NCBI RefSeq assembly: GCF_028446585.1
Contig: NZ_JAPFQL010000011.1
Location: 1 to 64,000 of the forward strand
Length of the DNA: 64,000 nucleotides
DNA from: Intrasporangium calvum
GTDB taxonomy: Bacteria; Actinomycetota; Actinomycetes; Actinomycetales; Dermatophilaceae
Direction: 5' to 3'
How positions within the stretch are numbered: the first letter of the stretch is position 1; the number at the start of each line of letters is the position of its first letter. The notes beneath the pieces were generated by a model, which worked only from the letters and a program-made list of their open reading frames with translations, ran no database searches and had not been told where the DNA came from. The position numbers were made by a program, and so were the translations under genes. Shown here piece after piece: positions 33,534-36,483 of this stretch.

Positions 33534-34730
33534 ATGCCAAGTCAGGCCCGCGTCGTTTGGGACCCCTCGTTCACGAAGTACAACTTCGGGCCGACCCACC
33601 CCATGGCGCCCATCCGGCTGGACCTGACGGCTCGACTGTGCGAGGCCCTCGGCCTGTTCGACGCTCCCGGTGTCGAGGTGTGTGGGGCCGAGCCGGCGAG
33701 CGACGAACTGCTCGAGACGATCCACGATACGGAGTACGTCGCGGCGGTCAAGGCGGCGTCCGCCGACCCGGACGAGGCGGACCCCGCCCGCGGCATCGGC
33801 ACCGAGGACGACCCGGCGTTCGAGGGCATGCACGAGTCGAGTGCCCGGATCGTGACCGGCACCGTCGACTCGGTTCGCGCGGTCTGGGAGGGGGAGACCA
33901 GCCATGCCGTGAACTTCACCGGTGGCCTGCATCACGCGATGCCTGACCGGGCCAGTGGCTTCTGCATCTACAACGACATCGCGGTCGGCATCAAGTGGCT
34001 CCTCGACCACGGCGCCGAGAGGGTCGCCTACGTCGACGTCGACGTGCATCACGGCGACGGCGTCGAGCGGATCTTCTGGGACGACCCGCGTGTCCTGACG
34101 ATCTCGCTGCACGAGACGGGTCGCGCCCTCTTTCCGGGGACGGGGTGGCCGACGGACATCGGCGGCCCGGACGCGCAGGGCATGGCCGTCAACGTGTCAC
34201 TGCCGCCGGGGCTCTCGGATGCGGGCTGGTTGCGGGCCATCCACGCCACGGTGATGCCGATCGTCCGGTCCTTCAAGCCGGACCTGCTCATCACCCAGCA
34301 CGGCTGTGACACCCATGCCGAGGATCCCTTGGCGCACTTCGCGATGACCGTCGATGCGCAGCGCTCGGCCGCGGACTCGCTCCACCGGCTCGCGCACGAG
34401 GTGTGCGAGGGCAAGTGGGTCGCGCTCGGTGGTGGTGGCTACGAGGTGGTGGGCGTCGTGCCTCGCACGTGGACGCACCTCACGGCGATCGCCGCGCACC
34501 GTCCGATCCCGACGGCCACGGAGATCCCGGAGGACTGGCGCGAGCACGTCGAGCAGGTGACGGGCCGACCGGCGCCGCGCCGCATGGGTGACCTGACGAC
34601 TCAGGATGGGCCGCTGTGGTGGCGCTCGTGGGACCTCGGCTACGACCCGGGCAGCGAGGTGGACCGGGCCATCATGGCGACGCGGTCGGCGGTGTTCCCG
34701 CACCACGGCCTGGACGTGCACTTCGACTGA
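33534..34730 (+). CDS. acuC: Histone deacetylase superfamily protein, AcuC-like
   Basis: 398 residues with the arginase/deacetylase fold: GGLHHAMPDRASGFCIYNDIA (catalytic His pair and Asp), zinc ligands in DVDVHHGDGVE and the LITQHGCDTHAEDPL loop, and GGGGY near the end. AcuC proteins deacetylate acetyl-CoA synthetase in Bacillus. Divergent from trkA over 55 bases. Its stop codon lies within the first unit of an 80-bp duplication. Confidence 0.9.
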   Translation: MPSQARVVWDPSFTKYNFGPTHPMAPIRLDLTARLCEALGLFDAPGVEVCGAEPASDELLETIHDTEYVAAVKAASADPDEADPARGIGTEDDPAFEGMHESSARIVTGTVDSVRAVWEGETSHAVNFTGGLHHAMPDRASGFCIYNDIAVGIKWLLDHGAERVAYVDVDVHHGDGVERIFWDDPRVLTISLHETGRALFPGTGWPTDIGGPDAQGMAVNVSLPPGLSDAGWLRAIHATVMPIVRSFKPDLLITQHGCDTHAEDPLAHFAMTVDAQRSAADSLHRLAHEVCEGKWVALGGGGYEVVGVVPRTWTHLTAIAAHRPIPTATEIPEDWREHVEQVTGRPAPRRMGDLTTQDGPLWWRSWDLGYDPGSEVDRAIMATRSAVFPHHGLDVHFD

Positions 34731-34890
34731 CGACGACGGCGTGAGAATCGACCGAGCGCCAGCGAGGGAGGATCGGAGCGCCGAGGAGTCGGTCGGAAAG
34801 GTTCGACTGACGACGACGGCGTGAGAATCGACCGAGCGCCAGCGAGGGAGGATCGGAGCGCCGAGGAGTCGGTCGCAAGGGTTCGACTGA
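34722..34890. repeat. 80-bp direct duplication at the acuC 3' end
   Basis: Two units (34722-34801 and 34802-34881) differ at 2 of 80 bases, followed by a third partial TTCGACTGA. The first unit contains the last codons and stop of acuC, so the duplication copied the gene's end into the spacer. Inside each unit is the purine-rich GCGAGGGAGGATCGGAGCG. No coding sense in the second unit. Confidence 0.92.
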
Positions 34891-34940: not shown

Positions 34941-35107
34941 AGAGGGTGCGCTCGGATCTGGCACCATGGATGTACGGCGTTGACGGGCCTGACGATCCTG
35001 AGCCGAGCGTGACCAAGAGGCCGACCGCGATCATGCGGCGGCGAAGGTGTGGTGGCACAGCGACTCTCCCCATCGCCCGCACCTCCGGGGCAACATCCCA
35101 GGAGGTG
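34941..35107 (+). promoter_or_regulatory. Candidate translational T-box riboswitch for the AspRS gene
   Basis: Four elements in T-box order. Stem I candidate: CGCTCGG 34949-34955 with CCGAGCG 35003-35009; in an alternative fold (GGATC/GATCC) a 3' bulge TGAC at 34990-34993 offers an Asp codon GAC as specifier. Stem III candidate: 35021-35041. Anti-sequestrator: AGGTGTGG 35045-35052 pairs fully with CCGCACCT 35077-35084 (one G-U), with the 7-base bulge UGGCACA 35053-35059 and GCG/CGC above; UGGC suits a tRNA with G73, as in tRNA-Asp. Sequestrator: CACCTCC 35080-35086 instead pairs perfectly with the Shine-Dalgarno GGAGGTG 35101-35107. Uncharged tRNA would free the ribosome site. Confidence 0.72.
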
Positions 35108-35112
35108 AAGGA

Positions 35113-36483
35113 ATGCAACCGACCCATCAACCGACCGACATCCATCAGCGAGTCCTCGCACGCGACCTCGCATCCCTGCCCGACGGCTCCCCGGCGTGCA
35201 TCGCGGGCTGGGTGCACCGGCGCCGCACGCTCGCGTCGGTGACGTTCGTCGTGGTGCGGGACCGGACGGGTCTGACCCAGGTCGTCGTCAAGGACGCAGA
35301 GACGATCAGCCGGCTCAGCGGCATACCTGAGGAGACGACGGTCGAGGTCACGGGCACCGTGTCGCTCAACCCCGCGGCCCCTGGAGGGGCGGAGCTGGTG
35401 GAGCCGACGTTCACTGCGCTGACGGAGCCTGCCGTCGCGCCTCCGGTCGAGCTGTGGCGACCGACGTTCGGGGCCGGGCTGGCGACGCATCTCGACCATG
35501 CGGCCGTGACGCTCCGGCATCCACGGCACCGAGCGGCGTGGGAGATCGCGAGTGCCTCGTTGCGCGGCTTCCGCTCGGCGCTCACCGCTCTCGACTTCAC
35601 GGAGATCGCGACGCCGAAGCTCGTCGGCGGCGCCACCGAGTCGGGGGCCAACGTCTTCGAGGTCGACTACTTCGGCCGCCCGGCCTACCTCGCCCAGTCG
35701 CCGCAGCTCTACAAGCAGATGCTGGTCGGAGTGTTCGAGCGGGTCTTCGAGGTGGGTCCGGTCTTCCGGGCGGAGCCGCACGACACCGTTCGTCACCTGG
35801 CGCAGTACACCTCGCTCGACGCGGAGCTCGGTTTCATCCGGGACCACCGCGACGTGCTCGTCATCCTCCGGGCTGCCCTCGCCGGGATGGTGGAGGCCAT
35901 CGAGTCGTATGCCGCTGAGGCCGCTTCGCTCCTTCACGTGGACCTGCCCCGGGTGCCGGAGGAGTTCCCCGTGATCCACTTCGCGGACGCCTTGGAGCTC
36001 GTGGGCGCCGACCCGGCCGAGCCCGACCTCAGCCCGGCGCACGAGAGGGCGCTGGGCGAGTGGGCCCTGACCACCCACGGCTCGGACTTCCTTGCCGTGG
36101 AGGGCTACCCGATGGCGAAGCGGCCCTTCTACACGCACCCATGGGCGGCTTCGTCCCCCATGCACCCCCGTCAGGCCCGTCTGGCTGAGCCGGGTGGCGA
36201 TGGTTTCGAGGGGTCGAACTCCTTCGACCTGCTGTTCCGAGGCCTGGAGCTGACGACCGGAGGCCAGCGGCTCCATCGTCCGAGCGACTACCGGGCCGCC
36301 CTCGAGCGGGCCGGCCAGGACCCTGCGACGCTCGCCGGCTACCTCGCCGCGTTCGAGCACGGGATGCCACCGCACGGCGGCTTCGCGATCGGCCTGGAGC
36401 GTTGGGTGGCTCGTCTCACCGGGGCGAAGAACGTCCGGGAGGTTGCGCTGTTCCCGCGGGACCTGCACCGGATCATGCCGTGA
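35113..36483 (+). CDS. Aspartate-tRNA ligase, archaeal/non-discriminating type (AspS2)
   Basis: 456 residues: N-terminal OB anticodon-binding fold, class II motif 2 FRAEPHDTVRHLAQYTSLDAE and motif 3 GFAIGLERWVARLTG with the tail REVALFPRD. The RAE.H.T.RHL and FPRD pattern is of the archaeal/eukaryal AspRS, and the roughly 150-residue GAD insertion of bacterial AspRS is absent. Such enzymes often charge both tRNA-Asp and tRNA-Asn. The strong AGGAGGTGAAGGA site fixes ATG 35113 and is the target of the upstream T-box. A dispersed-element copy (35906-35919) encodes SYAAEA. Confidence 0.88.
   Translation: MQPTHQPTDIHQRVLARDLASLPDGSPACIAGWVHRRRTLASVTFVVVRDRTGLTQVVVKDAETISRLSGIPEETTVEVTGTVSLNPAAPGGAELVEPTFTALTEPAVAPPVELWRPTFGAGLATHLDHAAVTLRHPRHRAAWEIASASLRGFRSALTALDFTEIATPKLVGGATESGANVFEVDYFGRPAYLAQSPQLYKQMLVGVFERVFEVGPVFRAEPHDTVRHLAQYTSLDAELGFIRDHRDVLVILRAALAGMVEAIESYAAEAASLLHVDLPRVPEEFPVIHFADALELVGADPAEPDLSPAHERALGEWALTTHGSDFLAVEGYPMAKRPFYTHPWAASSPMHPRQARLAEPGGDGFEGSNSFDLLFRGLELTTGGQRLHRPSDYRAALERAGQDPATLAGYLAAFEHGMPPHGGFAIGLERWVARLTGAKNVREVALFPRDLHRIMP
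35906..35919 (-). repeat. Dispersed element inside the AspRS gene (variant)
   Basis: CGTATGCCGCTGAG, perfect over the 12-base core, in frame as Tyr-Ala-Ala-Glu. A weaker 12-of-14 match lies at 35314-35327 in the same gene. Confidence 0.8.

Follow-up and report, generated by a model that had tools for sequence, protein, structure and literature searches.

A probable tRNA-Asp-specific translational T-box with an ultrashort Stem I and no apparent Stem II, ahead of a second, archaeal-type AspRS gene in Intrasporangium calvum

Introduction

A published scheme recognises at least four classes of T-box, and in every one of them a long Stem I or a Stem II, or the two together, is present (PMC10482949). 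In this scheme the first class combines a long Stem I with Stem II, the second has a long Stem I without Stem II and is glycine-specific, the third has a short Stem I and requires Stem II, and the fourth has a Stem I of intermediate length and is otherwise like the third. tRNA binding is augmented by the elbow motif of Stem I, the S-turn of Stem II, or both, and deletion of the IIA/B pseudoknot from an ileS T-box reduced tRNA binding more than 1000-fold (PMC10482949); IIA/B and the S-turn are described as essential in ileS T-boxes (PMC10651847). Most translational T-boxes have an intermediate or ultrashort Stem I, and the paper that reports this also explains how glycine T-boxes can do without Stem II and states, from published structures, that the G-U pair at the base of helix A2 in canonical T-boxes is the primary steric sensor (PMC7583486).

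In 2005 actinobacterial T-boxes were reported at ileS only (PMC1262725), and another account put the number of T-boxes at 32, spread over 12 of 19 genomes, Symbiobacterium apparently accounting for 18 (PMC2494555). Within the literature searched, most of it available in part, no T-box for Asp in Actinobacteria was found. TBDB has scanned Actinobacteria (PMC7778990) and may list some, so that what is claimed here is an architecture undescribed in the literature examined, not a set of unlisted sites.

Two described systems come closest to the leader studied here. The class III ileS T-boxes of Nocardia farcinica and Mycobacterium share its short Stem I, the specifier in the apical loop, the K-turn and the sequestration of the Shine-Dalgarno sequence (PMC10482949, PMC10651847, PMC1262725, PMC7583486). 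They differ in being specific for Ile rather than Asp, in requiring a Stem II domain with IIA/B where our leader has a 14-nt linker only, in the size of the Stem I loop (5–6 nt in the published accounts available, against 9 nt in 27 of 43 short Asp leaders), and in the pair at the base of A2, which is G-U in class III and G-C in the Asp leaders. Sherwood 2015 is drawn on here by way of the review PMC7583486. The class II glyQS T-boxes, like our leader, have a single-stranded linker in place of Stem II, but they are glycine-specific and have a long Stem I with an elbow-binding IDTM, in contrast to the 31-nt Stem I and GAC codon found here (PMC10482949).

Results

An earlier note on the window (the whole 64,000-nt stretch analysed here) had described the parts of a translational T-box at 34941–35107, ahead of an AspRS gene, and had proposed a search with RF00230 and a check of the two competing helices in relatives. 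The observation that the parts are present was confirmed, and the interpretation is partly supported. The parts, their conservation, their covariation and their association with the gene are given by the sequence itself, and the last three strongly support the prediction that an AspRS gene is here preceded by a translational T-box for tRNA-Asp. A genuine RNA switch is very probable in this stretch, one by which uncharged tRNA-Asp would turn on the gene. The parts of the leader and the gene described below lie on the forward strand.

A likely -10 region (CACCAT, 34962–34967) and start-site region can be placed at 34958–34972, directly 5' of Stem I; of 16 close leaders, 13 carry the motif TANNNT at 8–16 nt 5' of Stem I, against a mean of 0.58 after shuffling. 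The window itself has CACCAT, and a sigma-70 consensus scan found no promoter. The RNA probably begins near 34973, so that 34941 lies too far 5' to be its start. No coordinates had been given for the proposed upstream stem bearing GAC in a 3' bulge; its 5' arm, assumed here to be GCTCGGATC near 34950–34958, lies above the likely transcription start, and an upstream Watson-Crick match at least as long as the window's 7 bases was found in just one of the 15 other close leaders (L015, 8 bases). It was rejected on promoter position and poor conservation. Just 5' of the promoter there is also a tandem duplication of 80 nt (34722–34801 and 34802–34881, 98% identical) that was not seen by eye at the matching place of the same-genus locus L003.

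Stem I is ultrashort (34975–35005, 31 nt) and consists of two helices separated by a GA/GA internal loop, which by its sequence is K-turn-like and which is invariant in all 15 close leaders. The lower helix is CGGC 34975–34978 with GCCG 35002–35005, and the hairpin is GGG 34985–34987 with UCC 34996–34998, a register shifted by one base (CGGG/CCUG) being also possible. Within the loop UGACG the specifier GAC (34991–34993) presents an Asp codon ahead of an AspRS gene; it is found in 15/15 close leaders, and AAC is absent from the loop. The hairpin was compared in 61 short leaders (43 distinct), with positions chosen by hand from the UGAC motif, so that all 61 carry UGAC by selection; a 62nd, L048, has AGAC, and long leaders were recognised by AAGAC. 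Counting G-U pairs, 42 of the 43 distinct leaders have a helix of 3 bp or more. Own pairing averaged 4.53 against 4.09 with swapped strands (sd 0.14), and because the highest of 2000 swaps (4.58) exceeds the own value, support for the hairpin is moderate. Covariation of Stem I (helices 1 and 2) taken from the R1-based alignments A5 and A6 was withdrawn, as other bases occupy the Stem I place there: 31 of 48 rows (A5) and 21 of 27 (A6) have no GAC beyond its first 6 nt. From A5 and A6 only helices 3–6 are used, and Stem I rests on the alignment of close leaders and the hairpin swap test.

Stem I is followed by a 14-nt linker with a purine-rich 3' end, AGCGUGACCAAGAG (35006–35019), in the place taken in most other T-boxes by Stem II and the IIA/B pseudoknot, and then by Stem III (35020–35028 with 35035–35042). 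All seven modelled pairs of Stem III change on both sides in relatives, in alignments fitted to the structure and with kinship ignored. By eye, its flanks in the window are AAGAG before and GAA after, fitting the pattern RRRxG-Stem III-AA, and some relatives have ACGAG in place of AAGAG. GAC and Stem III lie 26 nt apart in the window and 25–27 nt apart across the 15 close leaders (some by eye), which leaves no room for a Stem II domain; judged in this way, the leader appears to be without both a long Stem I, with its elbow-binding end, and the Stem II/IIA-B domain.

The antisequestrator (35045–35084) is present as the earlier note had drawn it, with every pair of A1 (35045–35052/35077–35084), the 7-base bulge UGGCACA (35053–35059) and the upper helix A2, described as GCG/CGC and extending to GCGA/UCGC (35060–35063/35073–35076). 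The bulge reads UGGCACC in 83 of 105 leaders, UGGCACA in 21 and UGGUACC in one, the window's version departing from UGGNACC at the last position. In an alignment of 78 distinct relatives, both sides change in 9 of the 17 pairs (reached in 7 of 500 shuffles). Cells with such changes number 100, against 38.5 in shuffled alignments (0/500), and covariation scores 0.194, shuffled alignments giving 0.090 (0/500), kinship being ignored; the 17 pairs include five CCCC/GGGG pairs, whose register varies and 70% of whose cells pair. Among the 15 closest leaders, where the helices hardly vary, covariation is slight (0.056 against 0.040; 5/500). At the A2 pair beside the bulge, 77 of 78 leaders have G-C and not the canonical G-U, which is treated here as a mechanistic detail rather than a defining feature of T-boxes. 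The genome also carries an ileS T-box (L001, C76:102842–103009, minus strand), whose gene matches ileS over its first 483 residues (468 bits) and in which the strand CGU gives, by eye, a G-U pair at the base of A2.

Overlapping the 3' strand of A1, CACCUCC (35080–35086) can instead pair with the Shine-Dalgarno sequence GGAGGUG (35101–35107), an alternative that had also been recognised before. This sequestrator (35080–35107) and the antisequestrator make up the mutually exclusive expression platform of a T-box. As expected, the minimum-energy fold is the sequestrator (OFF) state, at -57.8 kcal/mol; forcing the antisequestrator raises the energy to -51.6 kcal/mol. The competing pairing is at least 6 bp long in 80 of 105 leaders and averages 6.37 bp, against 5.66 bp with swapped strands (sd 0.09; highest of 300 swaps 5.90; kinship ignored), the test taking the longest match within 44 nt downstream, G-U allowed and not always at the Shine-Dalgarno sequence. 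Next to it, CCCC in the A2 loop (35068–35071) could pair with GGGG (35087–35090), and we propose that the C bases of this loop and the G bases beside the sequestrator form part of an OFF-state pseudoknot spanning 35068–35090. When the A2 loop is compared with the 16 nt that follow A1, the longest Watson-Crick match averages 4.41 against 3.97 when swapped (105 leaders; sd 0.07; highest of 1000 swaps 4.25), although in some leaders this match is not of C and G. The same pairing as an ON-state pseudoknot was rejected, since 2–3 nt would need to span about 11 bp. In L133 (2908–2939), a leader with a Chloroflexi name, a different competitor is seen by eye: a perfect 14-bp hairpin that downstream bases can form with the loop of A2 and with the 3' strands of both A2 and A1.

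Independent support came from R3, a covariance model whose 27 training leaders all belong to other families, the window's own being left out. In a search of the 64-kb window it matched 34973–35110 with 91.3 bits (E 4.3e-18), the second-best match scoring 13.8 bits. The 27 leaders had been aligned by way of R1, which included the window, although the sequences themselves are independent; and as R2 and R3 carry the Stem I misplacement of the R1-based alignments, the R3 match rests mainly on the Stem I base, Stem III, the antisequestrator and the Shine-Dalgarno sequence. R3 gave no match at E ≤1 in the genome's own aspS locus (L022), its ileS locus (L001), L055, L096 or L102, and chance-like matches on the opposite strand in L020 (19.6 bits, over its T-box), L091 (13.6) and L016 (11). 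Rfam 15 reported no T-box in the stretch at gathering or relaxed thresholds, and RF00230 at its gathering score matched neither the window nor any of 20 relatives, although the core T-box sequence is, by eye, common to the model and the window leader. With a gathering score of 93, the same model rates the ileS T-box of this genome at just 16.6 bits, and is therefore a poor test in this group. The folding energy of the leader as a whole is unremarkable (z -0.47) and neither supports nor opposes the assignment, and a terminator scan found no intrinsic terminator in the leader.

The gene downstream (35113–36483) does encode a synthetase, as the note had it, but not the only AspRS of the genome: it is a second one, of archaeal type. 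Against its 456-aa product, NF003483 (aspartate--tRNA(Asn) ligase) scores 498 bits (cut-off 353) and TIGR00458 (aspS_nondisc) 317 bits, below the cut-off of 368. No GAD match was found in it, whereas the genome's other AspRS has one in the part compared; these two, the second AspRS and the bacterial AspRS, are the only PF00152 matches in the genome. The nearest PDB sequence is the archaeal-type AspRS-2 1n9w (335 bits), presumably a Thermus thermophilus entry.

The second gene is patchily distributed, occurring in 20 of 119 genomes sampled from the family, 14 of 297 from the order and 21 of 394 from the class, each sample including the window's genome. The leader was found at 128 of 132 loci examined, counting the window and with the named loci being the best 80 among the matches listed, and these gave 105 distinct leaders. 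A T-box lies upstream of the gene at 20/20 family loci, 13/13 new order loci, 18/19 new class loci and 77 of the best 80 named loci among the matches listed, which come partly from the same genomes. The loci without a leader are L091, L096, L102 and L055. The last of these is one part of a split gene in genome G398 (contig C895), in which a T-box precedes the 5' part (L296 276–539, residues 12–100) and L055 (1516–2520), about 3.2 kb apart from it, is the 3' part (residues 110–456). Genome G231 has two copies of the gene (L027 and L036) with near-identical leaders, one copy having an in-frame TAG. A phylum search with R2, in which only 8 candidates were scored per genome and which therefore says little, matched 3 of 396 genomes. 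A pattern search of the class gave 52 matches in 49 of 394 genomes, a reversed control pattern also matching often; of 30 loci inspected, 12 have T-box structure by eye, all preceding AspRS genes, and the other 18 look like chance.

Leader architecture varies within this gene family. After correction by eye, the distance from GAC to Stem III is at least 42 nt in 79 of the 105 leaders, four of which have a long Stem I with 42–45 nt, the remaining 75 having 43 nt or more. A short Stem I with 25–31 nt is found in 17, namely the 15 of the window's family together with L119 (28 nt) and L113 (31 nt), which belong to other lineages (distances by eye). The other nine have a long Stem I with AAGAC kept, only 23–27 nt, and no Stem II; they resemble glyQS leaders but for their Asp specifier. 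About 20 of the 105 rows had been misparsed, and classes were set by eye before a quick tree was made of 103 proteins, its root unknown, L027 and L052 being left out for their short translated proteins. On this tree the five architectures require 14 changes against a shuffled mean of 50.8, with 9 for Stem I length and 6 for the Stem II state, the branch support being of the weaker kind; the short minimal form requires 4, of which 3 are forced by starred branches.

T-boxes of the Asp type also occur ahead of the housekeeping aspS, as at L158–L161, L163–L169 and others in 21 genomes of the family. R1 matched in 50 of the 119 family genomes (E ≤0.1): 20 with the second gene, 21 upstream of bacterial aspS, and nine with weak matches (E 0.002–0.09) adjoining neither aspS gene (G078, G002, G064, G020, G065, G082, G085, G035 and G111), possibly other T-boxes or chance. 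Leaders of bacterial aspS were read in 113 of the 119 genomes (five gave no match and one was cut off), three of the 20 second-gene genomes not being among those read. The T-box stands on bacterial aspS in 21/96 genomes without the second gene and in 0/17 with it (Fisher p 0.039, kinship ignored). Within one genus, aspS lacks a T-box in G027, which carries the second gene, and G069, G096 and G113 show the reverse. This is weak evidence for a shift of regulation to the spare gene.

Discussion

The leader is, with a high degree of confidence, a tRNA-Asp-specific translational T-box that controls a second, archaeal-type AspRS and whose architecture lies beyond the four described classes. From its sequence we infer that it binds tRNA, senses charging and switches, and the following course of events can be proposed. 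By default CACCUCC would pair with the Shine-Dalgarno sequence and translation would be off. When tRNA-Asp is uncharged, its anticodon GUC would pair with GAC in the loop of the tiny Stem I, and UGGC of the antisequestrator bulge would pair with its unoccupied 3' end, GCCA; the antisequestrator thus stabilised would take CACCUCC away, leaving the Shine-Dalgarno sequence free and allowing the spare synthetase to be made. The genome's own tRNA-Asp has the anticodon GTC and, by eye, G at base 73, so that both pairings are possible and the C of UGGC, as the earlier note had expected, stands opposite the discriminator. The U before GAC and the G or A after it could in addition pair with A37 and U33, lengthening the contact: U-GAC-G could form a five-pair kissing interaction with A37, GUC and U33 (by wobble), or six pairs where G precedes U (with C38), the base before UGAC being G in 31, C in 29 and A in one of the 61 short leaders.

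A short Stem I without Stem II would be a combination missing from the four classes as published in the sources available. A leader without IIA/B may bind tRNA poorly, given the effect of the IIA/B deletion in ileS. Since the domains it lacks are essential in ileS T-boxes (PMC10651847, PMC10482949), the leader might be a degenerate T-box that keeps its parts and lost tRNA binding along with Stem II, a reading we consider improbable because specifier, UGGC, A1/A2, Stem III flanks and Shine-Dalgarno competitor are all kept across the 15 close leaders, and the reduced form recurs on the (quick) gene tree. It might otherwise be a class III T-box whose Stem II has gone unrecognised, formed for example by the linker and distant bases. 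Class III leaders do carry the specifier in the apical loop as here (PMC10482949), and relatives in other families have the same hairpin followed by a longer segment that could be Stem II/IIA-B; yet the 14 nt between Stem I and Stem III are too few for Stem II, S-turn and IIA/B, and comparable shortness occurs in other lineages (L119 and L113, by eye); this reading too is improbable.

The choice of tRNA has also to be weighed, the earlier note having allowed either tRNA-Asp or tRNA-Asn. The enzyme model is named for tRNA(Asn), base 73 of the genome's tRNA-Asn also reads G (by eye), and a two-codon T-box binding two tRNAs appears in the reference list of PMC4206432. Sensing of tRNA-Asn, or of both tRNAs, is nevertheless the least probable of these alternatives and very unlikely: GAC, without AAC, is constant in the close leaders and recurs in long and short relatives, even though their recognition partly used that codon, and it points to tRNA-Asp. 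The reading of the leader as a reduced T-box for tRNA-Asp is thus preferred. More tentatively, and as a proposal that we ourselves think doubtful, it may represent a fifth class in which the hairpin loop pairs beyond the anticodon, replacing the elbow contact and Stem II, and which with its pseudoknotted OFF state makes up a switch some 140 nt long, replacing the T-box of the housekeeping aspS once a second AspRS has been acquired.

Among its relatives, the long-Stem I Asp T-boxes of Nonomuraea, Streptosporangium and others share the gene family, GAC, the UGGC bulge and A1/A2, and differ in having kept the long Stem I and a segment of Stem II/IIA-B length. Within this single gene family both long and short forms of Stem I occur, each with and without the Stem II segment, a series of four that is natural material for work on structure and evolution. 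The leaders of this group escape Rfam at the loci scanned, and a conserved natural leader with neither elbow motif nor Stem II would offer a direct test of the smallest tRNA decoder. For the Actinobacteria that carry it, it could be conjectured that the spare archaeal-type AspRS is made in response to failing tRNA-Asp charging, such as an AspRS inhibitor might cause, and, equally as conjecture, that it may serve as an immunity to microcin C.
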